DNA of 64,000 bases from assembly GCA_009746045.1 (NCBI GenBank), contig RPFO01000406.1:1027159-1091158 (forward strand). Direction: 5' to 3'. Shown here one piece after another: positions 593-64,000 of the stretch (the stretch's first letter is position 1; each line of letters begins with the position of its first letter). Under the pieces are notes generated by a model, which saw nothing but the letters and a program-made list of their open reading frames with translations, was not told the DNA's origin and did not search any database. A program made the translations under genes and the position numbers. The DNA is from Mesostigma viride (lineage: Eukaryota; Streptophyta; Mesostigmatophyceae; Mesostigmatales; Mesostigmataceae).

Positions 593-3500
593 CAAGGAGA
601 TGCGTGCGTCCGGCGCCATCTGGTCCGTCTCTCTCCTCGCGTTCTGCGGCCACCAGGCCCAGGTGCAGGCGCGGCTGCCCCGCTTCCAGGAGGCCTTCTC
701 CTCGCTGCTGGGCGACGCCAGCGAGCTGACGCAGGAGGTGGCCTCGCGCGGCATGTCGCTTGTGTACGAGCTGGGCGACACGGCCACCAGGGAGCGGTTG
801 GTGCAGGACCTGGTGGGCACCCTGGCAGGGACATCGCGCAAGAAGGAGGCCATCAAGGTAGGGTGGTCGTGTGAATTAAGGCAATGATTGAAACAATAAA
901 GTTCTGCTATCCAGCGGAGGTGATTGTCAGCAACAGTCCATATGTCCACATACGACAGTAGTGATGGGGAATGCATAGCTGCCATGCAATCGCTGGCATC
1001 CGTCACACGCGACGGTAGGAATCGCTGCATTGAGTACCTTCGCCAGTTTGCTCACGCAACGCCCGTAGCCTATCCCCCTGCCCCCCCCCCCCCTCGTTTT
1101 CTGTCCTTGGCTTGATGACTATCCCCTGCTGTTTGGCACCCCCTCCCCCCTCTCCTCCCATCGGCCCCCCTCGCTCCCCGTTAACCTTCCTCGCCAAAAC
1201 AACAACGATATTAACAACTGCCGCAGGTAACGGACGACACCGAGGTGTTCCAAGCCGGAGCGCTCGGGTCGGCGCCAGGTGGCGGAAGCCTGAGCACCTA
1301 TAAGGAGCTCTGCTCCCTTGCCAACGAGATGGGCCAGCCGGACATGCTCTACAAGTTCATGGACTTGGCCAACCACGCCGCCTCTCTCGCCTCCAAGCGA
1401 GGTGCTGCGTTCGGGTTCGCAGACATCGCCAAGCAGGCCGGGCGCCAGCTGGACGCGCACCTGCCGCAGCTTCTGCCGAAGCTCTTCCGGCTCCAGTTCG
1501 ACCCCAACCCTCGGATCGCAGAGGCCATGGGGCACATCTGGAAGGCGCTGGTGCCCGACACGAGAAAAGCCGTGGACCAGTACTTTGGGAAGATCCTGGA
1601 GGAGCTGACGGGACAGATGGGGTCGCGCCTGTGGCGGTCGAGGGAAGGCGCGTGCGCCGCACTGGGGGATCTGTTGCAGGGGCGGCCGGCCAGGGACGTG
1701 CTGCCTCACCTGGAGTCGGTGTGGACCATGTCGTTTCGTGCGTTGGATGACATCAAGGAGAGCGTGCGTGTGGCCGCGGGGATTCTGTCCCGCACGGTGA
1801 GTATCGACTAGTTTAGGCCTTGAATTAATGAACACGAGTTCTTAAGTATTGACGGAAGGGTGGATGGCTGCATTACTAGTTACTACTGCATGGTGGGTGG
1901 AATGGGGCAGCATCCTCTCCTGCACGGTGAGTACCAATTGGAGCGGTCGGCTAGGCGCGTTTTTCCCTGCATGATGAGGGCACTCTCTCTTGCGCCGATG
2001 GGAAGGGGTTGAGTGGTCGGAAAGACGGATCGGGATAAGTCGTGAAGGGTGCTACGAGGATGGAGCGGAAGGAAAGTTTTGCAGGGATGGGTTATAAATA
2101 GAAATGTGGATAAAGGGTGGGGATTTCTAGTAGTACTGCCGTCTATTTCAGCCTCTGTTGCTACTTCCGCCAATCATTGTGCTGTCGCCCTCCAGCTCAC
2201 GCGCTGTGCTTGTAGTCAACAGCGATGTTGTCAATAACTATCTGGCATCTGTTTTTGACAACATCACATCTCCTCTGTCCAGCATTTATGTAATACCACT
2301 ACTACTATATTTTTTGCATGAGAATCCTTAAAAATGAGCGGAACACCTTTCCTGATATCTCGTTTTCTAATTTCTTTCCCTGCATCCTTTTTTATACCAT
2401 CTGTCTGGTCGATTCGGGGACACACACACACACACACACACACATGGCAGGTGGCATCGCTGAGCATCCGCGTGTGCGACGTCGCGCAGACCTCCCCCGC
2501 CGAGGCGTCGCAAGCGCTCGCCATCGTGCTTCCCCTTCTCCTCGACAAGGGGATGTCCAGCGAGGTGGCCGAGGTGCGCGGCCTCTCCGTGCGCACGATC
2601 ATGAAGATCGTCAAGGGGGCAGGGCCCAGCGTGCGGCCCCACATACCCAAACTCGCCACGGCGATGCTGGAGTCACTCTCCAACCTCGAGGACGCTAGGC
2701 TCAACTACGTGGAGATGCACGCAGCCAAGATGAACCTGAGCACGGACAAGCTCGAGAGCGGACGTATCGCCGCCTCCAAGGACAGCCCCATGTGGGACAC
2801 CCTGGATTTGTGCCTCCGCCAGGTGGACACGTCCACCGCTGAAGCCCTTGTGCCCCGCCTATGTCAGCTTGTCCGGTCCGGTGTCGGGCTAAACACGCGC
2901 GCGGGGACGGCACGGTTCGTGGGGCAGCTCTCGGCGCGGCTCCGCGGCGACCTGCGCCCTCACACGCAGGCTCTTATCAAGGCGTTCCAGACGGCGATGG
3001 GGTCGGAGCGCTCTAAGGCCGTCCGGCAGGCGTTTGCTTCGGCAATCGCGTCCTGCCTGCCCTTTGCCGCCGACTCGCGTCAAGAGAAGGTCATCCAGGA
3101 GACGCTGGCACTATACCACGAGCCGGGCGACGCGGACGCCCGCTGGTGCTCCGCACAGCTCATCCGAGAGATTGCCCGCGGGGCCGGTGACGTGCTCCAG
3201 AAATACTCCTCCGACGTGCTCCCGCTTGCGTTCTTCGCACGGCAGGACGAGGAGGCCCCCGTTGCGTCTCTCTGGTCGGAGGTATGGGAGGAGAACAGCA
3301 GTAGCCAAGCGGCCACCGTGCGGCTGCACCTGGGCGAGATATCGACATTGTGCCACCAGGGTCTGGTATCATCCTCGTGGGGGCGCAAGAAGCAGGCCGC
3401 CAAGGCTGTGAAATCCCTCGCTGAGGCGGTGGGCACGCCCGGGGATGCCAGTAGCGGCAACGGTGCTGGTGGCGGGGGGGGAGGAGGAGGGGAGAGCGTG

Positions 3501-5008
3501 CTGCAGCCGCGTGCGCACGAGCTTGCGCGCACGTTGCTGGGTGAGCTGCCAGGGCGGCTATGGGATGGCAAGGAGACGCTGTTGGACGCGCTGGGCGCGC
3601 TGGTCAAGGCGTGCGGGGGTGCCGCTTTTGGCAGCAGTGGCGCCACCCCCGCATTGAGCGCTAGCACAGCTGGGGCAGGCGCCACTGCTGCTGCTTCTGC
3701 TCCTGCAGCGGGCGGTGTGCGGCCAGTGGACGCGGCGCAGGTGATCGAAGCGCTCGTCGCTGCGTGCGGCCGCCAGAAGAATGCGTACCGGCTGCGGGCG
3801 CTGGCCGCGCTGGAGACCTCCCTGGACGCGCTCGAGGGGGTGGATCTGTTCGACAAGGTGGCGCCCGTGCTGCTTGATGCCGTGCGCCAGCATCAGCAGG
3901 CGGCCGCCACTGCCGCGGGTGGCAGCAGTAACTCGTCGTCGGATGCTGCTGCTGCTGCTGGTGGTGGTAAGGGCAAGGAGGCGGCAGGGGAGGACGAGAA
4001 CGCACCGCCGGCACCACTCCCGCTAACCGAAGTGCTTGGCTGTCTGCGGGCCGCGTGGGTGTCGGCTAGTGCAGGGGTGATGGAGGCGAATGGCCAAGCC
4101 ATGGTGGAGGCGTTTGGTGCGGCGATGGCGGTGAACCGGACGTGGTCTGGTGAGCAAGGTCTCCTCTATTATTTCTCTGCAGATCTGTGACGATGCTGGG
4201 TAGTGGGTTCGCATAGTTCTACGCTCTTGTACCTGGCTGCGGACAGGGTGAACTCGCATGGGCACTGGGACGGGAACTTGGACAGGAACTTAAACATCCT
4301 CAAACGGATTGGGATGCCGGGGGGAACTCTGTTGCCGCAGCAGGCAGTGGCCCATGCATCGAGTGATGCATCAACTGGTGTCAAGCCACAAGCAAACCTA
4401 GCCTACCTGGCATTTGGGGCATGTTTGTGAAAGAAGTTGATGTCCCTTGTCGTAAGTAGATCAACCCCTTCTCTCATCAGCATGAATTGCCATGCATGTG
4501 TGCATCACCTGCGCCCTTACTGAGCCATCCATGGGTGTTTTCCCGCCTCGTTTCGCCTTTGCTCCCTTGCCAAATCCACAATGCACTGTGGTTTTCGCTG
4601 CTGGCAGAGCACGTGGCGGCCCTCACAGCTGCCAAGTCCTTTGCCGTATCCGCCTGCAAGAAGCTCCCGCCACAACCAGCCAGCGACGCCAGCTTCGCAG
4701 CAGGAGGACGGCCGAATCCAAAGGTGCTGTCCTGGATCCAGGATGCGCTGCTGCCCTGTGCCCTCCGCTGCCTGGATGACCTCAAGTACTCGCAAGTGCG
4801 CCAGGCGAGCTTAGAGTGCATCGAACGCATTGCTGAGAACACGCACAACCTGGGGGACTTGCGTGCTGAGGTGGCCAGCTCTGTCGTGGCCAAAGTGCAG
4901 GCCATGTCGGAGTCTGATAAGAACTCTAATGTGCGTGCCATGGCGCTGCGCACGCACGGCCTGCTTAGCAAAGGGAGCCCAGGCGGTAGTGAGGACATGA
5001 AGAGTTAG
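593..5008 (+). CDS. ECM29: ECM29-like proteasome adaptor and scaffold, C-terminal half (5' partial)
   Basis: Exons 593-857, 1227-1796, 2451-4149 and 4608-5008 join in frame (phases 0, 0, 1) and give about 977 residues ending in TAG. The rebuilt protein follows animal and fungal ECM29/ECPAS collinearly to its C-terminus. Recognisable blocks are STYKELCSLA, KGMSSEVAEVRGLS, LVPRLCQLVRSGVGL and LWSEVWEENSSS. ECM29 is a protein of about 1800 residues made of HEAT-like helical repeats. It binds the 26S proteasome, bridges core and regulatory particles, and monitors their assembly. Here only the C-terminal half is in the window; the first exon starts with the last base of a split codon. Lineage-specific insertions include a poly-Gly stretch (bases near 3460-3495) and Ala/Ser-rich stretches (near 3650-3710 and 3900-3970). 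All introns are GT-AG. The acceptor of exon 3 directly follows a CA dinucleotide run. Family identity is very secure; the exact last junction rests on phase and alignment. Confidence 0.93.
2421..2444 (+). repeat. (CA)12 microsatellite next to an ECM29 3' splice site
   Basis: An uninterrupted CA dinucleotide run ends four bases before the CAG acceptor of ECM29 exon 3 (exon starts at 2451). It takes the place usually held by the polypyrimidine tract. Confidence 0.85.
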
Positions 5009-5043
5009 ACTGTTGCGGATCAAAGGCCGGCCCTTAAACACAT

Positions 5044-5048
5044 TGTAA
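5044..5048 (+). terminator. Candidate TGTAA poly(A) signal of ECM29
   Basis: TGTAA lies 35 bases after the ECM29 stop codon. TGTAA is the dominant polyadenylation signal in many chlorophyte algae. The motif is short and would occur by chance, so this is supportive only. Confidence 0.4.
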
Positions 5049-6083
5049 GGAAGGTCCCTGTTATGTTACACTACTACTTGGCACAAGGGCCATGGAACCA
5101 GATGATGCAAGTACATGCCCTGTTATAATACAATATGAGACAAACAGCGCACACACCTGACTAATGCATCAATCTGGAACGTCTAGTATAGCTGGACCAC
5201 GGAAGCTCAAGCCTAGGCGCTGCCGCGTTTTATATCTTATGCACGCTTGATCGAAGGAGGGGTGTCCCGCTCAGTGTTGGGTACCGTGGGTCCTCCGGCA
5301 CTTTCCGGGGACGGCCGACGACGGGAGATAATGCATCGCCTAGCGAATTGCGGAACTCCTTCCGCGCCATTTTGGGGGACAACGGACATGAATCAGGACT
5401 GAGCACCACAATACAGCCCAATATGGTTTAATTTGTGCTCGGCCCGCCGGCCCGGCGCGTAGGTTAATCAGCAGGCTCCAGCCGGCTCCAGCCGGCTCTT
5501 CATGCTCATCCCATGCATGCAATAATGGTCGGCGGCGGGAGTTTAATTTGCGAAGTAGTGCACCACAAGCTACCACAAGAGTCATGCAGGACTCCACAAG
5601 ATCTGGTTGCTCTCTCCGTCCATATACTGGACGACGACCGACATCAGTCCAGTAAAAACGGATCGAGAAGTCCTTCCGGCCAGCCACTTGGGCGACGACT
5701 GTAACTCGGAACTCCTTCCTTTCCTCCATATCTGGACAACGGAACCCATTTTGGGCGAACCAACAGGCTCCTTAAGTCCCGTCCAAAAGCGGGACGACAG
5801 GTCGGCCGACACCGGAACCTGCATGCAAAATGGCTGATGGGGCACCCAGCTCCTTTGCTCGATGGCTTCATGACATTGAATGGGGTTGGCTTGATCGAGT
5901 TCGATGTCTGGCACTGTTCACGTCAAATTAAAGTTTTGGATGTCTATAATAATTAATCAATTATGTATCTATCAGACAGCCATGTTCATCAATGTCAATG
6001 CCTAGTCACCCCTGTAACTAGGACCTAGATAGCTTATACCATCCATTCCATCCCATGTTCCCCTCCCACTGAGGACTTATGCT

Positions 6084-6102
6084 CACGTGACGCAGTCACG
6101 TG
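6084..6102. promoter_or_regulatory. Inverted repeat of two G-box cores
   Basis: CACGTGAC and GTCACGTG face each other around a 3-bp spacer, a perfect 8-bp inverted repeat with two CACGTG cores. In plants CACGTG is a bZIP/bHLH site. No gene start is nearby, so a regulatory role is only a possibility. Confidence 0.3.
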
Positions 6103-6244
6103 TCTATTAATTAATTAATTAATTAATGCCTAGTCAACATTGAAGACAGTGGCAGCTGCCCCACAGTCAGGCTTTGCTTTGTTCTATAAAGGTTGCGTTG
6201 TACAAACTAAGCCTCAGCCAGTCGGCAACAGGCCCGTATGCTTC

Positions 6245-7994
6245 TTTTAACCCGTGTTTTTTTAATTAGAACGCGATATATCGCGTTGTAAGCTTTTTTT
6301 AGAACGCGTATAGCACCTAAGGAAAATTTTTTTTCATGGTCATGTATATACTTTCCTGAAAGCCCATAAATCAAAGGATTTTTTGAGCTACTCAGACCTA
6401 CAAAATGCTAATTCATTAGAGAGATACACTGGTTTGAATACAGGGGGGTCTGACCATGACCGCGATTTCTTGACCCTAGGTCACAAGTCATGTGCTTATT
6501 CACAAATGGTTCATGAAAAAAATCTGGCTTCTTGCACGAGCTATGGGCAACATATGCAGGCTCTGTGAAACAAAACTCAGGCCCATTGGGCCACTGGAGC
6601 TATTTTTCATTAGCATCACAATTACAACGCAGTACAACGCAGTGGGAAAAATGAGAGCCCTTCACAACATGACGCAACGACATGAGCCCCATAAACGGGG
6701 CCATAGTGAGCTTGGAGGGTCAAAACGTTGAAAATAGGTGTTGTATAAGTTATACAGCATCAAACATGCATCAAACATCATGACTGGATGACCTAATATG
6801 ACTGAATCAGGCAGCCATAGCCAAAGCATCATCCACTCTCACAACGTGTTGAGCACATGCCTCGTGGGAACGGAGGTGCTGGGTTTTCATTCCATAACGC
6901 GTGCAATACTGAAAGAAAGAGGCACGTGTAATGCAAGGCTTGGATAGGTTGAGTGATCCATGAGCTTACATGCAGGCAAAGATGACGCTGGAATGCATGC
7001 TAGCAAATGGTGGCAAGATGCTAACAACACATGATTATACACCATGATTATGGGCACCTAGCTGGTCTTCTTGCAACAATCAACGCAGTATAAACCATCA
7101 ACATCCAATCCTCACGATATATGCACGGCTTGACGACGTATACAGCACCTAAATACTGCACAACTGCAACCTGCTATGGCTGACATGCAAGCAACGTCGA
7201 GTAGGATGGCGGTCTTAGAGAGGCTGGGCAGAGGTCGGTAGAAATAAGTGGAAAACTGGCAGAAACTAGGTAGAAACACGATATACTTACGCCTGCAAGC
7301 ACTATTGAGCCGGTGGCAGAGGCCATTTCCAGGAAAATACAGCATACCGTAGCAATAGCCACGGTCACGCCTTACGCTATTTGCAGGCACCATCATGCCC
7401 GGCGCTACCCAATAAAAGTCTGCACAATTCTCGGTTTAGCCGAGAGTCCGGACGTTCGGAATGAATAAACATGTGTTAAGAAGTCGAAACACCATGGAAA
7501 TACCAAGCATGGTGCCGCAGCAGACCCGAGTCTTGACGTAATAATATGTATGCCGGTTTCCAGGGTTTCCGCATGAAAGTTGGGTGAGAAACTGGAAAAA
7601 ACTACGTTTCCTTTGCCCCAGTACCTCAACAAACTCGTAGAAACCTAATTATCAACCTTTGAACGCATCATCATGGTCGTGCCACCCAACAGCCACTGAA
7701 ATTCGCGCGAAAACTGGCGAGATCTACGTGCCGCCATCGCCGTCGTCTTCACCTTCGTCCCGCGAAAATGCCTGATTTCAGTGGTACATATTTGTTTGCA
7801 GCTGTCACAAAAAAAATACCAAAAATACCAGGATTTTTTCTTTAATTCTATGAGATGTTTCTGACCTATCTTGAAAGTTTCAGACCAAAAATCGCATGTT
7901 TAATAGGTTTGCCACGTGTCAGATTACAACGCGATACATCGCGTTCTAACCCTACAACGCGATGTATCGCGTTGTAAAAAAACACGGGTTAAAA
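6245..7994. mobile_element. Inverted-repeat element of about 1.75 kb with subterminal palindromes
   Basis: The two ends are inverted copies of TTTTAACCCGTGTTTTTTTA. Just inside each end sits the palindrome AACGCGATxxATCGCGTT: once on the left (6270-6287, a perfect 18 bp) and twice on the right (7928-7945 and 7954-7975, the latter with 10-bp arms). The interior is AT-rich with no long open frame, so it looks like a non-autonomous DNA element or foldback. I could not identify a clear target-site duplication or assign a superfamily. Confidence 0.7.
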
Positions 7995-8352
7995 ATGCAT
8001 CTCACTCCGCTCATACTCGACATGTGCGGACAGGTGCGGATAAGATAATGACAGCCTCAAGATACCATGGTCCTGATTTCCAGATTTCAAGCTTGCTTCG
8101 GTTGTCTCATTGATTCCAAGGTGATAACCTGGAAAGGAACTCACAAAGGGCCACCTGCTATGACAGAGTGCACTTGGATTAGACTGCATCATCTGGAAAT
8201 GCTCTGCTCATTGGGTTTCGGGCGGAATTGAGTTAACATTTGATGATTCAAAAAGCCCCAAGTAATCATCTCTCAAGCTTCACTGGCCAGCGGCGTCATG
8301 AATGTTGCTGCTCACAACCTGCTGAGATGTTATCGCGCAGGTCAACATCCTC
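7995..8352. other. 3' flank of the meckelin gene
   Basis: Sequence downstream of the meckelin stop codon on the minus strand. It probably includes the 3' UTR. I see no gene and no clear poly(A) motif close to the stop. Confidence 0.5.
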
Positions 8353-34298
<25,946 letters not shown>

Positions 34299-35130: not shown

Positions 35131-44353
<9,223 letters not shown>

Positions 44354-44402
44354 CCGGCTGCAAGCTATAAAGGGGAACAATTCAATTGCAAGGCTCTCGC
44401 TT

Positions 44403-44407
44403 TGTAA
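44403..44407 (+). terminator. Candidate TGTAA poly(A) signal of the GNAT gene
   Basis: TGTAA begins 50 bases after the stop codon at 44353, the spacing expected of a chlorophyte poly(A) signal. The motif is short, so the call is supportive only. Confidence 0.4.
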
Positions 44408-45881
44408 AGCCTGAGCTGGTATTCAAGGATATCCGCAAGCCATAGTATTTATCTTGCATTGCCTTGTGTCAGCCATTTACCTTGTGTTGTGACATGTATT
44501 GTCTTATCGGAATGACTGGTATTTCAGAATGACCAGTATTGCCGCGCCTTCAGTACTGCGCTGGCATACACCTTCAACACAGGAAGCTGGCCCCACCTTT
44601 AGGGTCACCTGGAGCGTGATCGAAGATCACACATGTGGTGTGTAAATGATCGCAACCGCCCTTGATTTGGTGAGTTGAGCGAATGTGCAAACTACATGCC
44701 CTTGTCTGAGATGACCAAGCACTATATAGTAAACTAGCCATCGTGTTTTATATGCTCGACCCCCGCTACTGCCACCGCGTCATTATAATCTAATGCCGAG
44801 GACGTGTGCTCTAGCTTGTGACCATAGTGGCATGTTGTTTCAAATTTGGGTTCAAGCTGTTACATAGTTTCTAAATTTAATGTTGCGCATTGCTGAAACA
44901 AACAACCTGGACGGGACATGCATGAATTTTTTGTCGCTGAAAAAATTGCAGCACATGGAGTTCAAGATACCGTCCGTACGTACCGTGAAAAGTGCATGGG
45001 TGTGCAGAAGTACGTGGCCATGACAAAACAAATTATAACTCTCCGCGTTGACCGATCCGTTGGAAAAAATGAATAAATGCATGCGAACGCGCATACTCAT
45101 TGAATTAAATTTGATTAAATTATAACATGAGTAATTTCAGTTCTGGCTAATTGATAACTAAAATTGCTAAAATCTAATTGTTCTTTAGGATTTTAAAAAT
45201 AAAATTTAGAATTATTTCTGGCCTGCGCTGGTTGCCTCCTTGATAACATTACTCCGTTGGGAGATCATGTAGCACGCGTATTCCCTTGCTGGATGATTGA
45301 TGGAGGTGAGCAGAGCCGCGAAACCGAACTAAGCTAATCTAGAAAATCCTAACTTCTCTACTCAGCAAAGCGCCCCTTCCTCCTGAGGGGGGGGGGGGGC
45401 GGGCTTGCCCACAGGGGCTGGCGTGTGAGCCTGGACAATATCGTCTTCTTGTTCTGCATAGCAGTCCACGCAAGAGAGAGGGAGGAAATGCGGTGTTCAA
45501 ACTGGGCTGGGACCACTAGGTCGGCCAGCAGCTGCTGTGGATAGGTCATGGCAGGTTTACCCATCTTTCTTGGAACATCCTTGGGGCCAGGCCAGGTCAG
45601 GATATGCCGCCCTGGCGCACGTACTCATGCGCCTCGAAATGTCACGTACATATATTCTGATTTACATATATAATCTGCATTACGTACATATATAATCTAG
45701 CCCGTCTCACGGTGCGAGACTGAACAAGTCTCGCGTGCAGACACGTGTGTAGTACTCCTACACACAGATCTCGAGTGATTTATCTAGTACCAAATCCGAA
45801 AGGCTTGCATCACTCCCCGGACAGGAGAACTTTTGCGGATGACTGTAGGTGTAAGTTGGCGATGCCATGGTAACCGGAGAC

Positions 45882-45940
45882 GTCCGTCCTATAGTCAGCA
45901 AAATTGGTGCGAGAGGTCCCCAGTTCGATTCCGGTCGGAT
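45882..45940 (+). other. tRNA-like fragment, possibly tRNA-derived
   Basis: TGGTGCGAGAGGTCCC followed by AGTTCGATTCC resembles the 3' half of a eukaryotic tRNA-Pro, including an exact RNA polymerase III B box (GTTCGATTCC). The 5' half, anticodon stem and acceptor stem do not fold properly, so it is not a functional tRNA as written. A truncated tRNA or SINE head is the likely origin. Confidence 0.35.
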
Positions 45941-47329
45941 TCATTTGCAGATCGCGTTTTCCGCGTTTTCCGCGGCCTGGCACTGAACGCAAAGGTTTTC
46001 ACCTTTGCGGAGTGTCTGATCAGAATATATAATCTGCATGCGCGGTCTTTGCTTCCTTCCTCTCCGATAATTAATGCATCTACCCTAGTCCTTACACGAC
46101 CTTGGAACGCCATGCGTCCAGGAATAGGAGTCTCAACTATTAATAAAATTAAAAATCTGCAGCTGTTTTTATTGCATTATTTAATGATTACATCGACATG
46201 ATGGGTGGGTTCTCCATGAATTGCCCTTACCGGCTGTGCATTACCCGATCACCAAAATTTGATTGCTAAAATGTGAGCTTGTGGCGTGCACTCAGCATGA
46301 AAGCGCATCGCCTTTCTTGGTACATGCCATTTATCTAATGCAAAAAAAAATGCACCTACGAAATGCCCAGAAGTGCCTTCACAATGCATGGCAGATGGCC
46401 CCCCAACGGACATCCAAGTAAGGAACAAGGATGGGTCTTTCCTGCGGAAGAGTGCTATACTAGGGTACACACATGGACCATCCTGCCCTGTTGTGGCTTT
46501 ATCAAGAGAAAGTCGGGGATTGCACCAACCGGAGAGACTCCAGAGCCACACAGACACTCTCAAAGATAAAGCAATGATTGCAAGCCCTACACAATGCATC
46601 CTGATGGCACAGCGTGCCTGCATACATCAGCATTGCTGGCCTCTATAAGCCGCCGCAGACTTGCGCGGAGACTGGATTGAGTAGACAACCAGCACTAGCT
46701 GCTGTCAAACATTTTCAACAATGCCCAGTCCCCTGCATGTCCCAGCCGCCCCAGCTATCCTAGCATTGCCCGCCAAGTGAGCTATGACCGCCAGTTTGCC
46801 CTTGAAGCAAATATGCATTCATGCTGCTTGGCAGAAAAGCCGTGAAAGGCGCTTATGCCCCTGCCATCCCATTCTCCCCCCACGAAGGACTTGCGTATAT
46901 GGGGAAGGGTGTTTGACTGGAATCTTGGTTTCAAAAACCACCTAGCCATGAGCCACGGGCAATGTGTACACATCTCCAGGAGGATCTCTCCCAGTCAGCT
47001 GCTGACGCAGCGGCCAAACCTCTGCCAGCCACCACGTTCTGCCCACACTGCACTCAATCAATGAGATAACCAGCACAGGCCAGGGATCTGGAGAATCTGG
47101 ACCATGCCATGGACGCTCGACCCTGCCGTTACCTTATCCATATGCAAGAAATCCTTGACCCCCGTCACACTCGCATAACCCCGCTGTGCTTGCCGATATC
47201 ACCGTGACGCGCATCAGAAAAAGAAAATCACCGCGAAGAAGGAGAAAGCCCTCCCGCGTTCTCCAGGCCCGCCACCCACATCACTCGGGTGAATCCCCAT
47301 GCATCGCTCACACACTCTCAGCATCTCGC

Positions 47330-50300
47330 TCACACGTTCTCCAGCCCCACCACCCCGTCCTCGTTCTCCCCCGTGTTGCTCTCGTCCTCGCTGACCGAAT
47401 CGCCCGTCGGCTCCGTCGTGTACGCCGTCTTGGCGCCACCGCTGGGATCCTCCTCCTCCCCTTGGGCAATCTCCTGTTCGGCCTCGCTGATCTCATCAGG
47501 GCCGCCGTCGCTCACCGCGCGCGCGCCGTCGTCCCTGCGCACACGCATGGGAAAGGAATGGGGAAGGGATGGGGAAGGGATGGCGAAGGGATGGGGAAGG
47601 GGGGGGGGAGGGGGGAAGGGGGGAAGGGGGGGAAGGGGGGGAAGGGGGGAAACGGGGGGTGGGGAGGGGGGGGAAAGGCATGGGTAAGGCATGGGTAAGG
47701 CATGGGAAATTTGAGAAAGGAATCAGTTCAATGGTTGGCCTCCAAGAAGTCCATTCACTGGGCTCTTTGGTTAAATGCAATACACCCAAGTGGATACCCT
47801 GCTTGTCATCTTCAACACTGGATTCGCTAATCTAACACATGGTCATGCTCATGTGTGGGGAGGTAACCCAGCCAAGGCATGGCAGACAGGGACCATGAGA
47901 AGATGATCTAGGTTCTAGGTGGAATTAAAGTAGATACAACAATTAAAGTAGAAACAACAATTTAAGTAGAAACAACCAAATGGGCCACATTGCGTCTGGG
48001 CATCAGCACCATCAAGAGGCAGGGTCACAGGATGCTCCAGTAGGGGTAAGCACCAGCGGACGCCAGTAGAAGACAGCACCGCCGGGTCACAGGATGCTCC
48101 TTGTCATGGAACTACGCACAGTACCACGTGCGGTGCGCAACACGTCCCATGCGATGTCCACTGCATTCGCTAGCCTGGCGGTATGGATGCCTTGCTCGTC
48201 ATGTCCGCCCACTTACTAAACAGCTGGTGGCCATGGATGGCAACTAAACAGGGTGCGCCAAGGTGCAGACAAGGTGCAGGCGCCTCACGAGGTTAAACAA
48301 GCAGCATGTAGGTACAACACTTGAGCTCAAACCATGGCATCTACTGTACATCAAATAACTCCACGTACTCAAGCAGCGCATCCCCCACGGCAGCCTTAAC
48401 CTCATAGAGCCAAGCTCAGACGATTCACGTACATTCACTTCTCGGAACTTACACAAATGGTGCCTCTCCAACCTTAGAAGCTCAAACAAATTTAGCTATT
48501 GGACTGTTAACATTTCCTTCACAAAAATAATACTAGGAAAGCTGCACTCACTCGGATGGCGCCTCCCCCACGGCGGCCTTGAGCTCCTCCGCCAGCCCCG
48601 TGAGCAGCGACGTGGACTCCTCAGGTTGCGGCTCCTCCTCCTCCACCGCCTGCAGGCTGGGCTGCGGCCGCGTGGTCGGCTGGTAGAGGCCGATCGTGGT
48701 GCCCAGCCGAATCCAGTCCTCCGACACCACCTTGTAGCTGGGGGGTTGGAGGCGGCGTGAGGAGGCGTGAGGAGGCGGCATGAGGAGGAGAATAGCGGGA
48801 GGGATAAGAATGGAGCCGTGAGCACGAGCGCTGGGAGACAACACGCGCGCCACCTGCGGGTGTAGGCGTGTGGTCTCGATGTGTGATGTGGGTGTCTTTG
48901 TGTGCGCATGCTGTCTGTGCATGTGTGTAGTGCTGGTGCCTTGCGTGGGGTGGGATTCTGCGCGGGAGAGATAAGGACACCAGCAACCGGCATGGGGTTC
49001 ATTTTCGACGGCTGCACTAATGTAGACGTTCAGGAAAAGTTGAATGCACATTCTTTTCAACGCATCCGGCAATGCAGCTACCGCATTGTGCACACTCATT
49101 GGGTCATGTTGGCCCTTCTCACTGCATCATTCCTAGCCAGGCGTTGCAATACACACATACTACTACATCCTCCACCCTACATCACTTCGTGCACATTCAG
49201 GGCGCCTCCAAAAAATCTATCCGCAACAATTGACACTCACCATATCCTGACGCGCTTGACCTGGTCATATACCAAACCCATATCTGGCATCCACTTGATA
49301 TTGTGTCTCATCCCCCCCTCTCTCGCCGTATCGTGGCGCGCTTGACCTGGTCCTTCCCTAACTTGGAGAACATCTATTCAACCGCTGCATCCTTTTCATA
49401 TTGCACTTCAGCCTCCGTCCTTCTCCAACCGTGTAACGCAATAATAACAGCTCGTTGACTTGTGCGTTGCTTGACCTGGTCCTTGGCAGCTTACATTGAA
49501 AACGTTTACTCAACCACTGCAGTGGCCACACTCAGCCCAGCCCCCCCTCCCCCCCACGGCATCGCGGTATTGATAACTCACCGAATCGTGACGCGCTTGA
49601 CTTGGTAGGACCAGGTGTAGGTCACGTGGATATCTCCGTTGGGCGTCTCCAGCACGGAGGGGTAGCTGTACTCCAGCCCCTCGTCGTACACATCCTCCAG
49701 GTCGCGCACGTACGGCCACGTCTTGCCGTCATCCTCCGAGAGAGCAATCGCCATCGGGCCCCACTTGGCGCCACCTACCGCATTGGGTATGTGTGTGTGT
49801 GTGGGGGGGGGCAACACATGGGTGGACGCACAAGAGATATTGTTCGTGAGGCCGCTTGGCACCGCCTGCCAGTTGGTGGGTGGGGGCAAAACATTACATT
49901 GTAATAAAAATTGTGATTGTGTGACAGGGGGTACCAGTTAAGGTACTGCCCACCCTGGCTGTTGCCAAACACGGCACGAGGCGGACTAGAACGTGCAGAC
50001 AACCAGCGCGTGCTCACCCTGGTTGTTGCCAAATGTCATGACAATGTTCCCGTTGCGCAGCACGCACGCCTGGATGGCCTTGTTGTTGTTGGGCAGCGGC
50101 GTCGGCTCGGCCACGCTCCACGTGCGCCCCTCATCGGTGCTGTTGGCCATGAAGATGTTCTTCTTCTTGCGGTCGCGGTAGTAGGCAAGCAGCACGTCGT
50201 CGTTGGTGCGCAGGCGGACAACCGTGGGTTGGACCTGCGGGGAAGGATATGGGTGGGGGAAAGGGGGGGAGGAGGGGGGGGGGAAGAGAGAGAGGCAAAG

Positions 50301-53300
50301 CAGGCAGGAAGACAGGGGAGGACGACAGGGGGCGAGATGGGGAGATAGAAGGGGAACAAGACGGGCGGGAGGGGGAAGTGCTGAGATGGAAAGAGGAGAA
50401 CAATTCACTCGTCCACAAAGTGTGTGCAAAGTAGGGGAGGTCCTACCAGTATAATCAACGCAAAAACGTCTTGAGAAGGAATGGATCCGTGCTCTTGCCA
50501 GTACTTGCGTCCGCAATGCATTGCACCTGTAACAGCCTTGCCACATGACCCAGCCACATGGCACATACCTACCACACACTGCGCACACAAACGCTAAAGA
50601 AGTCAAACGCTAAAGAACTCATCCACGCACCACGTACTGCCCCGGCAGCGACATCGTGTGCTCCTCCCAGTGGCGCTCGCCGTGCGTGGCCCCAGGCAGC
50701 AGCGTGTAGATTTTCATGGCCGAGTATTGGTCGCGGATGTTCGCGCCGCCCATGCCCGAGGGCGTGTAGTACATGGGCAGCAGCCAGTCGTTGTTGATCT
50801 TTGACAAGAGCATCTGGTTGCGGATGAAGGCACCTGGGGGGGGGCGGTGGCGGTCACAGTTACAGATGGAGGGGGGGAGGGGGGAAGGGGAAAAGGGGAG
50901 AGAAAAGGAGTGAGAGACAAGGAGGAGCAGAGAGCGGGCAAGGAAGAAATGATGGGGCGTATGCTGGCATTACGGATGGGCCGCTATTGCCGAATTCCAT
51001 GCATCGCGCTGTGTGGCTCCACTACGTGCCCTTGGAAAAGAATCCAACGAAGTGTGCGGTGGGACTATTCACCCCCATGCTGCGTGGGCTATCGTCCGCC
51101 GTGCTGCGCCTACCATCGTTTTCCCACCACATCTCACTGCTTCAGTAGCAAATCAACAACATGCGTCAAGTTGTCTGCAGTGGGCCGCTCCCACCTCCGC
51201 TGGTATACAGCAAGGTAGAAATGTTGTTCTTGCATGTCCATTCCCAGTACCGGGCTGCATGCATCATACCCACTTGGACCAACCCAGAGCACCCACCGCG
51301 CTGCGAGGAACCAGCAAGAAGAAGGGGGTTGGATTGTGAAATTTTGGCTTGCGCTCTTCCCACGCATACAGTGCTGCTCGGTCCATCACCACCGTGGGTT
51401 CACCCACCGTGCTGCGTGAAGAGCGGCGCCGGGTCTGACCACGTCGCGCCCTCGTCGGCCGAGACCAGCAGCAGCACGGACGAGGTGCCCTGCCCCTGCT
51501 CCGCGTTCTGCGTGGTGTGCAGCAGGAACAGCTTGGACGCCTCGGCGTCAAAGAAGAGGACCGGGTTCTGTGCGCTGTGGCCGGGCCACTCGGACACGAT
51601 GGCGGGGGTGGACCACTGGAAGCTGCCTGCGAGGGGTCAAAAGAAGCAACGTAGTGGAGACATGTCGGTGCAAAGGCATGTCTATGAGATCAACCACCAC
51701 TCGGACACAATCGCAGGGGGTGGACCACTTGAAGCTGCCTGCCAGGTGCTGAGCAGAGCCTGGTCGTGAGTGACTCAACAGAATCGAGAGGTATCATGAA
51801 ATACTTACCACAAGGGAGGAGGTACTGACGTGAGAATCGCAACTCACGAGAAGTGCGGCGAAAGAAGATCCTACAAATGCAGACAGAAACAAATAAGAGC
51901 CTAGTAAGGAAAAGAATGCAACTTAAACCGACAATAATGACACAAGAATATAACAAATACAGCTTTAAAAAGGTGAATTTCAGGGCTTTCCCCGCCATCA
52001 CAAATCAATATGGTATGTGCATGGTGGTGGCGGTGGTGGGCATACGTACATATCGGAGAGTAAATAAAACATCTAATCAGGCACATATTGTCGTCAGAAA
52101 GCAACAAACGTGAAAACGCTAGCTGCCCAAATCTGAGATTCTGCAGAACACAGAAAGTAAGAAAGCCCAGAGGCTACCAGCAAGAAATCGAACATAGGAC
52201 CTTTGGCATGATTTCGCGGCTGTGTGAGTCTCCTGATCCGAAGGCATCTCACTTAACGTTTCGAAACAGCCCAACTGCGAAAAAACTCGCTCTACGTACA
52301 CACTGACAAAAGCACAGGGAAGGCCTTTAGCCCACCTGAGGGCAACATCATCACCCCAGCAGTCGTTTCCCATTCCAACCACATACCCGCGGGCAGCACA
52401 CAAACAAACACACGAAACCCATCACACCAGGCCATACATCCACCGGACAGCGGTTTTATGGACACGACGCCGCGATGCACCCAAAAGCAACACCACCACG
52501 CCGGGAGTGGTTCTCATAACCCATAAGGACTACTCACCTTTGGGCGGCGCAAACTAGCATGGCAATGGCCCACCACATACCCGATGGCAGCTTTGTGAAT
52601 GCGATGCCGCACCCGTCGTGATTCTCCACCCCCGCAAAGAAGGCGAGCGCCAGGTCACCGGACGGCAGCATGGCCAGGTTGGACGCGTGCGCCTGCTCGC
52701 GCGGGTTGGCAATCAACGCCTGCAGGCTGCCGTCGTCGTTCTGGCGCACGATGCCGTCGCAGGTGAGGCCCTCGTCGCCCACCGCGTCGTACAAGTCTGC
52801 ACGCTCGTGCTTCCAGTTGTGCGGCGCCCACAGAGGCTGGTCCTCTGATGGGGGTCAAGGACCGGGGGGGGGGGGGGGAGAAAGGGGGGGTAATGGGGAT
52901 ACAAGGGGTGAGAAATAAAGGGGGGCGAGGGGGATAACAGAGGGGGCAGGAGCGAAACTGAGGGTAAAAGCTGGGGAGAGGAACGAAGGGACGAGACAAA
53001 AGGAGGGAAGAGGGGAGGGGGGGGAGGGGGGAGTGCAGAAGGCGGATAAGAATGAGAGATCAGAAGGGACAAGATAGGGGGGGGGGGGGGGCGGGGCGGA
53101 TGAAGGAAAGGGAGGTATCCAAGAGGGGGGGGGGGGGAGAAATGGGTCGGGGAAGAGGTAGATGATCGAACATCACTTGCAACATGTGATTGTGATTGTG
53201 ATTGTGATTGTGATTATGATTGTGATTGTGATTGTGATTGTGATTGTGATTGTGATTGTGATTGTGATTGTGATTGTGATTGTGATTGTGATTGTGATTG

Positions 53301-56300
53301 TGATTGTGATTGTGATTGTGATTGTGATTGTGATTGTGATTGTGATTGTGATTGTGATTGTGATTGTGATTGTGATTGTGATTGTAATTGTGATTGTGAT
53401 TGTGATTGTGATTGGGAAAGTGAAAGTGAAAGTGAAAGTGATTGTGATTGTGATTGTGATTGTTGGCACGGGTCAAGGCACACCATCGATCCACACAAAA
53501 CAGAGCACAGATGTACAGAGGAGTGCAATCACCGCAGACGCGGCGGCTGGCAGTCGGTGCCCAGGCGCCGGGTGAGCGGAGACCGGCGCCGACAAAACAG
53601 TCCATGCAACGTTCATGCTACCCTCCGACATGCTGACATGGCTAATGTATGCCTGTACTACCCAAGACGAATCGACATGGTGATACATCATCTCCACCGG
53701 ACTGTCACCGCCACCCAAAAGGCATGAGTAGAAAGGCAGAATCCGTACAGGGGTTCCAGCACGCAGCTGTTGGACCACACAAGACTGCACCATGCAATAC
53801 TGCAACACGCAAGACAGCACCACGCACCCTCCAAGGCTTCCTCCTCGGGTTGCGGCTTGTCCTCGTTTGCCACCTCCTCCTCCTTGTCCGCCAGCTCATC
53901 GCCTGCGACCACCTCACCACCGCCCAGCACGTCCTTGCCAGGGACCACCACGCGGTCGTGCTCGCCCACCTCCATGTCGCCCTCTGCCGCCACCATGCTG
54001 TCGGTCACGGGCAAGCGGAAGAGCACCTGCGGGGGGGGAAGAGCAAGAGTGCACGGGGAGGGTGCAAGGGGCGGGGGCAGGCGTGGGGGAGGGAGTCAGA
54101 GGCCTGCGCTAGCTGGAGTATAAGATGGGCACAAGGAGAGGAGCGAAAGGGATGGGCAAAGAAGAAAATGAGAGGAGCCCCGGCATTTGGGGAGATGAGG
54201 GTGGGCAGGAGATTTGTGGTTTGTTCTCGTCGCAAGGCCATGTGTGAGGCGTTGGCGAGCAAAGTGAACAAGGGGGCAGTGGCAGCGAGCGGGGGCCACA
54301 AAGACGGAGGTCAGGTAGAGGAGCAGGAAGAGGGTGGTCAGGTGGCCATGGTGATACGCGCATGGACACGTCTGGGGATGTGGTGTCTGGACACGTGGTG
54401 TCTAGAGACCATACCAGGGAGTGCCCTTGCCCATAAACCTCATTGAGCGTTCCCCCATAAACATCGATGACGGGAGACACACCGCCCCCCCCTGCCAACA
54501 CAAACTTTGGGTACGACAGAGCCCCTTGGCGTGACCGAGGACCGGCGGCAGCTACAGCACCGTATGACAGACATGTGGCAACCAGCGACGCGCAGGCATG
54601 GGGTCCACAGGAAGCGCCCTCATGGGCAATAGACTGCGTGGGCGCACATCGGGTGAAAGCGCTGCATGGACACAGCGAGCAGCCGCAGTCAGTCCGCCCA
54701 GCAACGGCCAGCAACAGCCAGCAACGGCCAGCAACGGCCAGCAACGGCCAGCAACAGCCAGCAACGGCCAGCAACGGCCAGCAACGGCCAGCAACGGCCA
54801 GCAACGGCCAGCAACGGCCAGCAACGGCCAGCAACGGCCAGCAACGGCCAGCAACGGCCAGCAACGGCCAGCAACGGCCAGCAACGGCCAGCAACGGCCA
54901 GCAACGGCCAGCAACGGCCAGCAACGGCCAGCAACGGCCAGCAACGGCCAGCAACGGCCAGCAACGGCAAGCAGTAACGCAAGCACGGAAGCAACCCAGC
55001 GGGCAGCAGCCGACAGAGCAACCGACCTACCGAAATAACCACGGAACAAAGAACCAAACGAGCAAACAGCGAGCACCGAGCAAGGACCCCAGCAATGAGG
55101 ACATGCTTGCGGGACGTGGCGTGGGCCTCTGGGTGCGCATGCACATGTGCGGTGGTGGATGTGACCGTGCGCATGAAAGGTGGCGGATGCCTTCATGGAG
55201 GTTGGGCGCAGAAGAACGCAGGGGGGAGGAGGTAGCCGGCAAGAAGGGTCACGGACGGCGACCAACAAGCCCGTGCAGGCACCAACACGAACCACCAACA
55301 CGAACCACCAACACGAACCACCAACACGAACCACTAACACGAACCCCCAGACATGACACGCCTGTCTTAAGAGGCTATTGCACCCCGTTGAGCTACCGGC
55401 AGCCAGCGTGGAACAAGCAGGGAGGCGGAAGCAGGTAGGGGAAAGAACAAGACAAAGCAGCCCTTTCACGCCAGGCACGTGCCATAGCCGAGGGCGAGCG
55501 CAAGGTTTTACAGACACGAACACGCCCGAGAGCTACATACTATAAAAAGGAATGAAGCGGGAGGCAACGAACAAAAACGAGACAGAGGCAGGCCGAGGGC
55601 GACACTCACGCGGGAGCAAGCGGGCTGACGCAGACTAAAGGAGGCCAGGTGCTTTCAATAGAGGCGGTACAGAGGCACAGGAGCTGGTACAGGGGAAGGG
55701 AAGGCGCACACAGCGGGCAGCAGGGAATGATGGCGTCTGCAGCAGCGCAACCCCAAAGAACGCATGCCAGGTGCGGCCCCCATGCCCCTTGAAACTGGGA
55801 GGAGTGCAGTGGTCAGTCCCCCAGCCAGCCAGCCACCGCTAACTCGCAGGGCTGCCACGTGGCGAACCATAGCCACCCGGGGGCGCGACCAGCAACCAAC
55901 CTCGTTTGTCTCAAACCATTCAAGACATCACGGGCCCCCCGTGGCCATGCGGTTTCTAGCAGCTGCCCCAGTGGCCATGAAAGACACAGGTGACAGCAGG
56001 CAGCAGGACAAAGGGCGACACCAGACAGCATGGCAGCAGGTGACAGGAGCCAGCACGGCAGCAGGTGACAGCAGACAGCAGCAAGGACGGCAACAACAGC
56101 GACACCACAGCGGCAGCAGCAGCATGACAGCCCCCCTCATGGCATCATGGCAACAGCAATGCTTAAACACCACAGGCAACCGCCACGAACAAAACTTCAC
56201 GAGCAAGCCTTCACAAGCAAGACCGCCATGGGACCGCGTGGTTCACGGGCACACAACGAAAATGGACACCTGTCACCTGTCACCAGCAACAACACGTGCC

Positions 56301-59091
56301 CATCACAGCCAGCATGAGGTTGGCCGCTGCGTGGTAGATGCCAGTCTCAGGGGACTGTCATCCTCTCAACACAGATACCTTCACCCCCAGAGTTGCCTTC
56401 CCCCCTCCCTACACGCAGTACCCCGTCTGTGTGTCCCGAATATGGAAGGTCCCCACCCCCCAATGGTTGGGTACGTACTTATAGTGAATGTCCATCGAGG
56501 CATTGATGGGTAGCAATCATGGGCGGGCATGTACACACGTGTTTATTTTTACAGCAAAAAAAAAAATTCATTGCAAAAAGATGGAAATAAATCATATAAC
56601 ATTTCGTAGCCATAAACACGATGTCTATGTCTCTGGTTGGGAAAATGGAAAAGAATTGCCCATCGCGTGGCCAGTGTCACAGGCACCGCCACCACCACGC
56701 CGGGTGTTGTATGACTAGCCCAAGCATCCTGGCCACACCCTTATCCCTATGCTCCCTGCCCCATGTTCCCCAGGGTATGCCACAGGGTGGTGCACCAGTG
56801 CGGCCCATGTGGTCAGGCCGTAACCAGGGGTCCAATCAACCCACACCCCATCCATTAACACCGAATGTTCAGTGCCAGAATCCCATGCTAAAAAATCACG
56901 AAACAAGCGTATAGAAACAGGGGCCCTGTGCCCATACAGGGCGAGTCGCTGTCCCGCAATAAACATGACCCGCGATCCGCTGCACTACCCTATCCGCCAC
57001 GCGGCACGCGCCACCATGAGCGCGCGCCACATCATCTGAGGCGCGCGTTGCCAAGCAACGTGACAACACACCGCCGCAGCCACGTGGGACCAACGGACCG
57101 CCGCGTCTGCATGCGAGATAAACCATCTCATCCCTCCCCGTTCTTTCATCCCATCTCATCCTCTTTCAGCCTTTCATTCCACCTCATTTTATTCCTTCCC
57201 ACCCCCTTTATTCCCACACGTGGCCGCCCTGATTGTGTTTATTCCATTGTGCTTATTCCCACACCTGGCCGCTCTCGTCCACGTTCTCCGGAACGCTCTC
57301 GGTGACTGCCGCCTCGATGGCGTCGTCGTCGCTCACGTGCAGCACGCCAGCAGCGCCGTCCTCCACCGATGCGCCCGCTGCCTGGTCCGCAAACGACATC
57401 GCGCTCTCGTCCACCTCCTCGCCACCACCATCCTCGTTGCTGCCACCGGCGGCGCCATCGCCCGCGTCACTGGCATCCGCGCCATCCCCCCCCGCGGCAA
57501 CATCACTCTCCTCCCCACCACCAGTCTCCTCTGCAGCACCGCCAGCCTCATCCTCCGGGACACTGGCGACCTCCGCAGCGGTAGCGTCGTCCACCGCCAA
57601 TGATATTGCACTGTCGTCATCCGCGTCCGAGGGGGCCGCCTCCGTCTCCGCGTCAGCCCCCGAAGAGGCCGGCCCATCATCCGCCGCGTTCATCAGCGCG
57701 TCCGCAATCTCCCGCAGCAGCGCGCGCTCCTCCTTGGCAGCCTCATGCGCCTCCTCGGCCGCACGGACCTCCTCCCCAATCTGCTTGGCCGTGTCCGCGA
57801 ACGCCATGATGGAGTCGTCGGGGTCCTCGTCGTGCGCCTCCGTGTGCGAGATGCCAACAACAGGGGTCGCATCGCTCTCCTCCACGACCGCAGAATCGCC
57901 ACTGCTGCTGTCATCTTCGGCAAACTCCGTTGCGGCCGCGCTGGCATCCGCATCCTCCTCCGACTTTTCAGCCGATGATGGCGAGGGTGAGTCCGCAAAC
58001 GCAAACACAGACTCGTCGGGGTCCTCGTCATGGGCCTCCGTGTGGACGACCCCTGCAACCGGCGTCGCGTCGCTCTCCTCGTCATCCCCGGCCTCCACCT
58101 GGCCCCCCTCAGGCATTGCGCTGTCGTCCCGGACATCCGCCACCGTGGTAAACTCGGCTGCCGGCTCGCCGTCCGCGTTGCTGTTCACATCCTCCTCCTC
58201 GGAAACGGCGCTAAGGCCAGTGTCCGCGTCGTCGTCGCTGCCTTGCTCCGCTTGGGCCTCCTGGAGCGCCTCGCTTAGAGCCGCCACGTACGCCTCGGTC
58301 GACACGGAGTCACTGGCAGGCTCCTCGCCGGCATTGCCGCCATTCTCGGAGATCAACGTCTCGTCTTGCGCCGACGACTCGGTCTCGTCCACCTGGCCGC
58401 CGTCCGCCTCGCTGGCGGTCTCCTCCGGGGTCTCGTCCTCCGGGAGCAGGCTCGGGTCCAGCTTGGGCTTCACCACCGTGTCCTCGGGAGCCTGCTTGTG
58501 CATCAGGCGGTACCGCTTGGCCAGCGTCGGGGAGATCTCGACCGGCTTGTCATCGTGCTCATGGAGGAAGTGTGACGTGCCCCCATGTTGACCGGGAGAG
58601 TCATGTCCGTCGTCGTCGGAGGCGGACTCGTGCCTCTGAGCGCGGAGCCGTCTGGGATCGACACCCTCTTGCTCGCCGTCTGCCGCCGAGTCCTCTGCCA
58701 CCGAGTCATCGGCAACCGAGTCATCGGCAACCGAGTCTTCAGCCACCGAGTCATCGGCAACCGCGTCTTCAGCCACCGAGTCTTCAGCTACAGAGTCTTC
58801 AGCCACCGAGTCCTCAGCCACCGAGTCCTCCGCGACCGAGTCGTCTGCCACGGAGTCTTCAGCCACCGAGTCCCCAGCCCCGAAATCGTCATCTTGCAAG
58901 AGACGGCGGGACGCGCGATGGTGGACCACATTTCCTACACCAAGACCCGATCCCACGGTTTCAGCATCGAAAGCTGGGCGAGACCCGATGAAAAAGCTCG
59001 CCAACGACGCCACCGCCACCAGGACCAAAATCCGGCCTCGCAATGAGAGCCCCATCACGGAAGGGCTCCTTGGAGGTGAGGATTTCAACAA
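47330..59091 (-). CDS. Type II membrane or secreted protein with acidic stalk and BNR/Asp-box sialidase-like domain
   Basis: Nine exons join in frame to 1170 residues: 59091-57265, 54026-53828, 52844-52581, 51626-51408, 50833-50631, 50234-50018, 49774-49582, 48737-48552, 47534-47330. Residues 20-36 (ILVLVAVASLASFFIG) are a signal anchor; a second in-frame ATG is at 59055. RRLLQ follows near residue 64, then DSVAE/DSVAD pentapeptide repeats and about 500 very acidic residues. Residues about 677-1050 match the BNR_2 sialidase-like family: SNLAMLPSGDLALAFFAG, GHSAQNPVLFF, GAFIRN, LLPMYY and LPNNNKAIQACVLRNGNIV. Three Asp boxes (SADEGATW, STDEGRTW, SEDDGKTW) mark beta-propeller blades. The C-terminal 115 residues are acidic again. 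The family cleaves or binds glycosidic substrates in the secretory pathway or outside the cell; I see no FRIP motif, so sialidase activity is unproven. Introns repeat exon-donor junctions. Confidence 0.88.
48368..48420 (-). repeat. Diverged copy of the exon 8 donor junction (sialidase-like gene)
   Basis: GCATCCCCCACGGCAGCCTT at about 48378 mirrors GCGCCTCCCCCACGGCGGCC near the end of exon 8 (48560-48580). The copy is 175 bp into the downstream intron, and the match continues into ACCTC/AGCTC. Confidence 0.75.
49240..49484 (-). repeat. Three copies of the exon 7 donor junction (sialidase-like gene)
   Basis: CGTGACGCGCTTGACTTGGT at the end of exon 7 (from about 49588) recurs as CTGACGCGCTTGACCTGGT near 49248, CGTGGCGCGCTTGACCTGGT near 49332 and TGCGTTGCTTGACCTGGT near 49461. 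The first copy keeps a GGTGAG donor in the sense strand. Confidence 0.85.
49948..49978 (-). repeat. Copy of the exon 6 donor junction (sialidase-like gene)
   Basis: CACCCTGGCTGTTGCCAAAC mirrors CACCCTGGTTGTTGCCAAAT at 50015-50034, the exon 6 end plus donor. The copy lies about 65 bp into the intron and retains GTGGGC after CCAG in the sense strand. Confidence 0.85.
51699..51742 (-). repeat. Copy of the exon 4 acceptor side (sialidase-like gene)
   Basis: A 44-bp block containing GTGGACCACTTGAAGCTGCC mirrors 51588-51630, the acceptor and first 39 coding bases of exon 4, with few mismatches. It lies upstream of the real exon and keeps an acceptor-like CAG. Confidence 0.85.
53185..53462. repeat. 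(TGTGAT)n hexanucleotide array, about 275 bp
   Basis: TGTGAT repeats about 45 times with rare substitutions and one short GTGAAA interruption near 53416-53440. It lies in intron 2 of the sialidase-like gene. Confidence 0.96.
54699..54968. repeat. 10-bp tandem repeat, 27 copies
   Basis: CAGCAACGGC repeats 27 times with an occasional A for G. The array is in intron 1 of the sialidase-like gene. The open frames it creates on both strands are repeat artefacts. Confidence 0.95.
55282..55345. repeat. 13-bp tandem repeat, about five copies
   Basis: ACCAACACGAACC repeats about five times, the last copy with one change, in intron 1 of the sialidase-like gene. Confidence 0.88.
57207..57231 (-). repeat. 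Copy of the exon 1 donor junction (sialidase-like gene)
   Basis: TATTCCCACACGTGGCCGCC mirrors TATTCCCACACCTGGCCGCT at the end of exon 1 (57254-57273). The copy is 45 bp downstream in the gene's direction. Confidence 0.85.

Positions 59092-61714: not shown

Positions 61715-64000
<2,286 letters not shown>

Follow-up and report, generated by a model that had tools for sequence, protein, structure and literature searches.

Analysis of a 64 kb window of genomic DNA, the whole stretch under study, showed that exon ends have been copied, together with the splice signals that follow them, into the downstream introns of the three genes modelled there, ECM29, meckelin and a sialidase-like gene. We lean towards reading these copies as degenerate 'mirages', that is, small tandem duplications of about 15-60 bp that straddle the exon-intron junction, mostly on the donor side. 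The whole analysis covers this one window and these three genes.

Genes were modelled with a home-made codon-plus-splice-site finder and manual choices, without RNA evidence. The ECM29 model has exons at 600-857, 1227-1796, 2451-4149 and 4608-5008 on the forward strand. On the reverse strand, 21 meckelin exons were used, from 32461 down to 11620 (further exons extend down to ~9243), and 8 exons of the sialidase-like gene, from 59055 down to 48557. Meckelin was identified by a match to PDB entry 7fh1 (E 9.8e-34; five aligned pieces, two significant alone), and a homology check matched the sialidase-like gene to BNR_2 and the ECM29 gene to HEAT_ECM29. An Rfam search gave no matches, a PDB search with ECM29 exon 3 matched no entry, and alignment of ECM29 against viral and prokaryote contigs confirmed no related loci. 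In the top 120 of the 1776 sialidase relatives, the highest-ranking named sequences bore labels of the Mesostigma, Pyramimonas, Tetraselmis, Cymbomonas and Chlorokybus type (39-46% identity), and the same 120 included amoeba, clam and bacterial sequences at 35-41% identity. We take the labels Mesvir1, Chlat1 and Tetstr1 to stand for Mesostigma, Chlorokybus and Tetraselmis. The DNA is eukaryotic, probably from a green alga, its GC content is 54%, and the introns are GT-AG with one GC-AG case. In the sialidase-like gene, the N-terminal region encoded by exon 1 (57265-59055), which precedes the BNR domain, is very acidic and full of repeats, and another acidic exon is predicted at 47334-47510.

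Each donor junction was represented by its last 30 exonic and first 8 intronic bases ([-30,+8]) and aligned to the next 400 bp of its own intron. The set comprised 32 curated junctions from the three genes, and a score of at least 28 was taken as a strong copy. For two of the donors (17020 and 48572) the position was chosen by hand in sight of the copies, and meckelin model exon 5, whose end is a GGAT microsatellite, was retained in the set of 32 and omitted from the copy lists. A strong copy was observed for 14/32 donors, and a copy scoring at least 24 for 16/32, in agreement with the initial annotation, which had described exon tails plus 5' splice sites recurring in their own downstream introns. 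The same queries gave 0/992 at a score of at least 28 when run against the introns after other donors (3/992 at 24 and 12/992 at 22), and control 38-mers from exon interiors gave 0/277 at 24 or above against the same introns. The corresponding Fisher p values at threshold 28 were 3e-23 and 8e-16. These two controls rule out chance similarity as the source of the copies, and the objection raised at the outset, that unrelated exon ends might match as often as the own exon end, was not borne out. When the window was compared with itself after masking of tandem arrays, repeat pairs that scored at least 28 and were separated by under 400 bp numbered 39 in direct and 3 in inverted orientation; many of the direct pairs coincide with exon-donor junctions. 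Donors with and without copies showed no significant difference in donor strength, exon length or G content.

On the forward strand, the tail and donor of ECM29 exon 2 (-15..+7, 1782-1803) recur in the downstream intron at 1912-1933 with 86% identity and GTGAGT kept. All other cases lie on the reverse strand. In the sialidase-like gene, single copies follow exon 1 (junction 57253-57275, copy 57208-57230), exon 3 (52569-52591, copy 52375-52397), exon 6 (50011-50033, copy 49947-49969, 91%) and exon 8 (end 48559-48586 with the hand-set donor GCC|GTGGGG, copy 48376-48403), and two copies each follow exon 4 (51399-51418; copies 51290-51305 and 51068-51086) and exon 7 (49576-49606; copies 49322-49351 and 49235-49265). 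The copies proposed earlier after ECM29 exon 2 and sialidase exons 1, 6, 7 and 8 were thus all recovered. The one after exon 3 had been called weak; it is present but not weak (score 28-31). Exon 4, which was missing from the earlier list, has copies too (score 27).

In meckelin, the junction of model exon 4 (exon 28839-28904, junction 28832-28863) has three copies, at 28800-28826, 28743-28776 and 28655-28686, and so does that of model exon 6 (26999-27092; 26992-27023), at 26920-26951 (91%), 26887-26908 and about 26806-26836, with poly-C and a CA repeat lying between the junction and the first of these. Model exon 7 (26078-26179; 26069-26092) has a copy at 25938-25961, from which weaker similarity extends into the intron. 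The hand-set donor of model exon 14, ending at 17020, has a near-adjacent copy (junction 17010-17029, copy 16983-17002), and model exon 15 (16337-16501; 16334-16363) has one at 16157-16186 that is 97% identical over 30 bp, its donor changed to CAA|GTGCAC. Four listed copies of model exon 16 (15242-15427; 15237-15253) were found at 15188-15204, 15108-15119, 15058-15074 and 14936-14953, along with a fifth, weaker one at about 15145-15155; the donor here appears to be CAG|GCAAG (15236-15247), and its GC is kept in all four listed copies. Model exon 18 (13596-13643; 13588-13618) is followed by a near-adjacent tandem copy at 13553-13583, offset by 35 bp, and model exon 19 (12967-13062; 12958-12985) by a five-copy ladder at 12873-12900 (96%), 12832-12846, 12788-12807, 12719-12744 and 12640-12664.

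Twelve meckelin exons had been named as having copies, in a numbering that appears to be shifted by about four from ours. Eight of these are clear at a score of at least 28 (model exons 4, 6, 7, 14, 15, 16, 18 and 19). Model exon 13 (17917-18072) is marginal: its match (17905-17920, copy 17772-17787, score 24-27) is mostly intronic and includes only the last four exonic bases. Model exons 10 and 21 reached a score of 22, near the level seen with other introns. The last named exon, number 26 in the earlier count, could not be matched to a model exon, but a copy exists after an additional meckelin exon whose end is at 9243 (..QPIFYH|GTATGT; junction 9240-9263, copy 9144-9167). That junction, found via its repeat, and the junction of the acidic exon at 47334-47510 (47329-47355, copy 47251-47277) lie beyond the set of 32, with first intron bases at 9242 and 47333, respectively. 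Three extra donors beyond the set, at 10540, 9918 and 30827, had no copies.

The 29 copies listed at 16 donors (score at least 24) are 15-58 bp in total length and lie 27-341 bp from the source junction, with 2 to 225 bp between successive copies. Their exonic part reaches to between -4 and -27; when extension was left free, the intronic end lay between +3 and +39, and in 22/29 no further than +12. A fixed-window profile had strongly suggested that a mechanism sets a sharp limit at +6 to +9, an idea given up after the free-extension test (mean right end +11.4 versus +13.2 for uniform placement, p 0.08). GT or GC is kept at the copied donor in 27/29, as anticipated in the initial annotation for many copies. 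The ladders described there are also present, with several listed copies in the introns after meckelin model exons 4, 6, 16 and 19 and sialidase exons 4 and 7, indicating that duplication was recurrent.

Strong copies were found in the downstream intron (14/32) and not in the upstream intron (0/29, where 26/29 exons are 220 bp or shorter), the next intron (0/29) or inverted orientation (0/32). They sit in the same intron as the source donor, in direct orientation, with no intervening exon. This downstream-only, direct-only arrangement is predicted by flanking or tandem duplication and not by dispersed copying, and dispersed templated copying in either orientation and to either side was unsupported by the direction test. 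In some ladders the flank following the junction is partly repeated after the copy (6/29 cases) as compared to 29/580 controls (p 0.004), and part of the following intron is repeated as well in the introns after the exons at 12967-13062, 15242-15427 and 26078-26179. In 23/29 cases, three of them with only ~20-25 comparable bases, the two flanks matched with a score below 20, so that, for most copies, a simple duplication in tandem of everything from donor to donor is unsupported. Most copies thus do not appear to be head-to-tail, and insertion of filler must be assumed if they began as tandem duplications. Near-adjacent forms do occur, with fillers of 2, 4 and 7 bp at meckelin model exons 4, 18 and 14, respectively. 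These forms, whose offsets are 27, 29 and 35 in ascending order, resemble ordinary small junction-crossing tandem duplications, which supports the mirage reading.

Insertion of an introner-like mobile element at donors, with the copies as target-site duplications, would likewise leave two copies flanking an insert. Target-primed insertion yields copies of variable length, and the copy lengths here do vary. We give this origin hardly any credence. The inserts are as short as 2 bp and no longer than 225 bp, ladders are hard to explain in this way, and the 25/29 inserts of at least 20 bp showed no common family when compared within the window, the best cross-intron match being 17 bp (E 0.02). Matches of inserts to the window with E <0.001 were confined to their own places and a same-intron repeat.

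We then compared donors with anchors in intron interiors, using the same geometry as in the donor test and leaving minisatellites unmasked. At a score of at least 28, 133/1929 interior anchors had a copy, forming 17 loci. Donors were duplicated far more often (14/32; odds ratio 10.5, p 1.4e-8), also when the two hand-set donors were left out (12/30, odds ratio 9.0), and the rates of 44% and 6.9% correspond to a ratio of 6.3. An earlier interior control (20/1025) overstated the contrast, because it masked minisatellites and left out most short offsets, and is superseded. Donor-like intronic motifs, considered as possible hotspots at the DNA level and numbering only 19, gave 0/19 at a score of 28, as compared to 21/1158 random places. 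An unlikely explanation, though one with some chance of being right, is that minisatellites and tandem duplications arise evenly across introns and that junction cases are conspicuous since selection freezes the exon side. Tandem repeats are indeed plentiful in the window (62 TRF rows), and the 17 interior loci show duplication inside introns, although two or more of these loci, including those near 14741 and 49471, derive from junctions. In addition, simulated copies were detected at 0.83-0.92 under one-sided decay and at 0.47-0.74 under two-sided decay, making junction copies up to ~1.8 times easier to see, so that decay on one side only, beside a conserved exon, may reduce the real excess to 3.6-5-fold. 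Detection thus differs less than twofold, and an estimated excess of about 3.6- to 5-fold at donors may remain, arguing against an even background. The proposal that local duplication centres on exon-donor junctions is upheld in this form, part of the excess being due to easier detection. Within a meckelin intron, 11 copies of a 27-bp unit (97% matches) form a minisatellite at 18738-19033, indicating that tandem growth occurs off junctions too.

Acceptors were examined with a [-8,+30] query against the upstream intron. Copies scoring at least 28 were found for 4/30 acceptors in their own upstream intron and for 0/870 in other introns, and by direction in 4/29 upstream and 0/29 downstream. This frequency is lower than that at donors (p 0.012) and not significantly different from that in intron interiors (p 0.15). 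On the reverse strand, one acceptor-side case is the beginning of sialidase exon 4 (51586-51634), whose upstream copy at 51697-51746 is 90% identical over 50 bp; the other cases are 15414-15457 (copy 15507-15548), 14577-14638 (copy 14682-14755, in two aligned pieces), 11753-11770 (copy 12022-12039) and 23215-23238 (copy 23336-23359, score 25-28).

The copies could also be remnants of intron birth, either by tandem duplication of exonic AG|GT (the Rogers 1989 model) or by insertion at staggered breaks as in Daphnia, an origin we hold to be very improbable here. According to the excerpted accounts, direct repeats of 4-30 bp lie close to exon-intron borders, as in our window, and near the splice sites of 213 introns (PMC11782384). 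New Daphnia introns likewise carry direct repeats (55/90 introns), and repeated staggered breaks are proposed to have lengthened introns there and to have left repeats inside them (PMC4202315). However, as excerpted, the former study sets the 5' border against the 3' border, and in Daphnia the terminal bases of the adjacent exon recur as repeats of 4-12 bp at the opposite end of the new intron. The tandem-duplication model predicts a copy at the acceptor, and the donor junction was found duplicated at its own acceptor in 0/30 cases at a score of at least 24, as compared to 15/930 for other acceptors. Moreover, to acquire a ladder or copies of unequal divergence, an intron must have been present already and have been hit more than once.

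We next considered the fate of the copies. Mismatches in their exonic part fell at codon positions 1, 2 and 3 in 21/149, 12/152 and 31/162 cases (position 2 versus 3, p 0.005), an open frame and GC3 being the criteria for choosing frames. This distribution fits a neutrally drifting copy compared with an exon whose changes fall mostly on third positions, and would equally arise from two constrained sequences. One- and two-base indels in the copies of meckelin model exons 6 and 15 and sialidase exon 4 speak against the copies being translated. With 27/29 retaining GT or GC, the copied sites are possible competing donors. Selection might keep them as extra U1 sites, as alternative or recursive donors, or through nested splicing of the stwintron kind. 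Many copies do have good donor scores. For a reticulon-like gene of Lipomyces, the excerpted report proposes that [D] stwintrons began when a functional donor was duplicated, an event it attributes to the repair of staggered breaks (PMC7138796). The Lipomyces case resembles ours in the duplicated donor and differs in that, as excerpted, it concerns one gene and duplications of 4-7 nt with no long exon tail, and in that nested splicing was demonstrated (PMC7138796). We judge selection of this kind improbable for the window: mismatches are not clearly fewer in the donor core of the copies than in the exon body (18/156 versus 30/156, p 0.08), the copies are weaker donors than the originals (median score 5.2 versus 7.4), and offsets modulo 3 (14, 7 and 8) give no clear sign of selection. 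Nothing in the window data demands a function.

Taking the copies as degenerate mirages, they would have originated by tandem duplication across the junction, through fill-in of a staggered break and end joining or through slippage. According to the excerpted source, small tandem duplications can arise from complementary 3' overhangs at breaks that are filled in and then joined (PMC8355091). Duplication across a donor would leave the first donor intact and place the second copy in the intron, and it presumably survives because of this; acceptors would be the mirror image. Ladders would then come from repeated rounds, and the copies would be pushed apart by later insertions and microsatellite growth while drifting neutrally. 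The donor excess suggests a hotspot of breakage or slippage at donors, which, as a guess, is perhaps tied to transcription and splicing. A stronger proposal, that splice junctions and mainly donors are hotspots of short tandem duplication in this lineage as a result of co-transcriptional splicing, with nearly half of all introns carrying fossil copies of exon ends, seems to us doubtful; it would involve a paused polymerase, or RNA-DNA hybrids ending at a bound 5' splice site.

The statement that no standard feature explains the pattern does not hold, since amphioxus mirages and human boundary minisatellites have already been described. The account of the amphioxus mirages cites Canestro et al. 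2002. A mirage unit spans the boundary, including exon bases and the splice signal, as was found here at 14/32 donors and 4/30 acceptors, and lies in direct orientation beside an authentic boundary with no exon between, as was also the case here; the head-to-tail arrangement is approached only in the three near-adjacent forms, with the flank repeated in 6/29. The excerpted accounts describe mirages as minisatellite-like tandem duplications of 5' and 3' exon-intron boundaries in the Adh3, globin, troponin C and PGBD5 genes, with units of 10-72 bp in Adh3, many repeats carrying AG/GT signals, regular splicing kept and a generating mechanism called unclear (PMC3087553, PMC3902484). The two systems are alike in their boundary-spanning units, the many retained splice signals and the overlapping unit sizes, and mirages, as excerpted, may degenerate inside introns, as the copies in the window have done. 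Unlike these mirages, the copies belong to a probable green alga, affect 14/32 donors in three genes, are mostly gapped, diverged and donor-biased, and were read from sequence alone. The pattern is thus of the same kind as mirages, differing in lineage, in frequency in the examined genes, in donor bias and in degeneration. Human paralogues in segmental duplications carry boundary minisatellites; their tandem repeats at or in exons have a mean unit of 30 bp and elongate exons and introns, those at boundaries possibly forming new introns (PMC2812944, as excerpted). In contrast to our copies, these arrays are recent, near-identical and half coding and belong to recent paralogues, and the excerpted text does not describe them as exon-tail-plus-donor copies (PMC2812944). 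We found no description of the pattern in algae in searches that listed open-access papers, which does not establish its absence from print.

The idea that the duplications lengthen introns as a general effect was not supported, as introns with copies (15, median 654 bp) are not longer than those without (15, median 655 bp; p 0.68). If the pattern were true genome-wide, a process for which we found reports from several genes of amphioxus and from some human paralogues would be frequent in a distant lineage, and boundary-spanning duplication may then be a general mutational habit. Introns would hold an archive of differently aged duplications and ready spare donors for new splice forms. Automatic gene finders would also call for caution; our own finder, when loosely set, took several copies as extra exons. 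Apart from the genes, the window contains a perfect CAA microsatellite of 762 units (61715-64000), which reaches the window end, and long CCAT, CT and CTCT/CA microsatellites at 27627-28265, 39019-39681 and 42176-42942, two of which lie outside the modelled genes.
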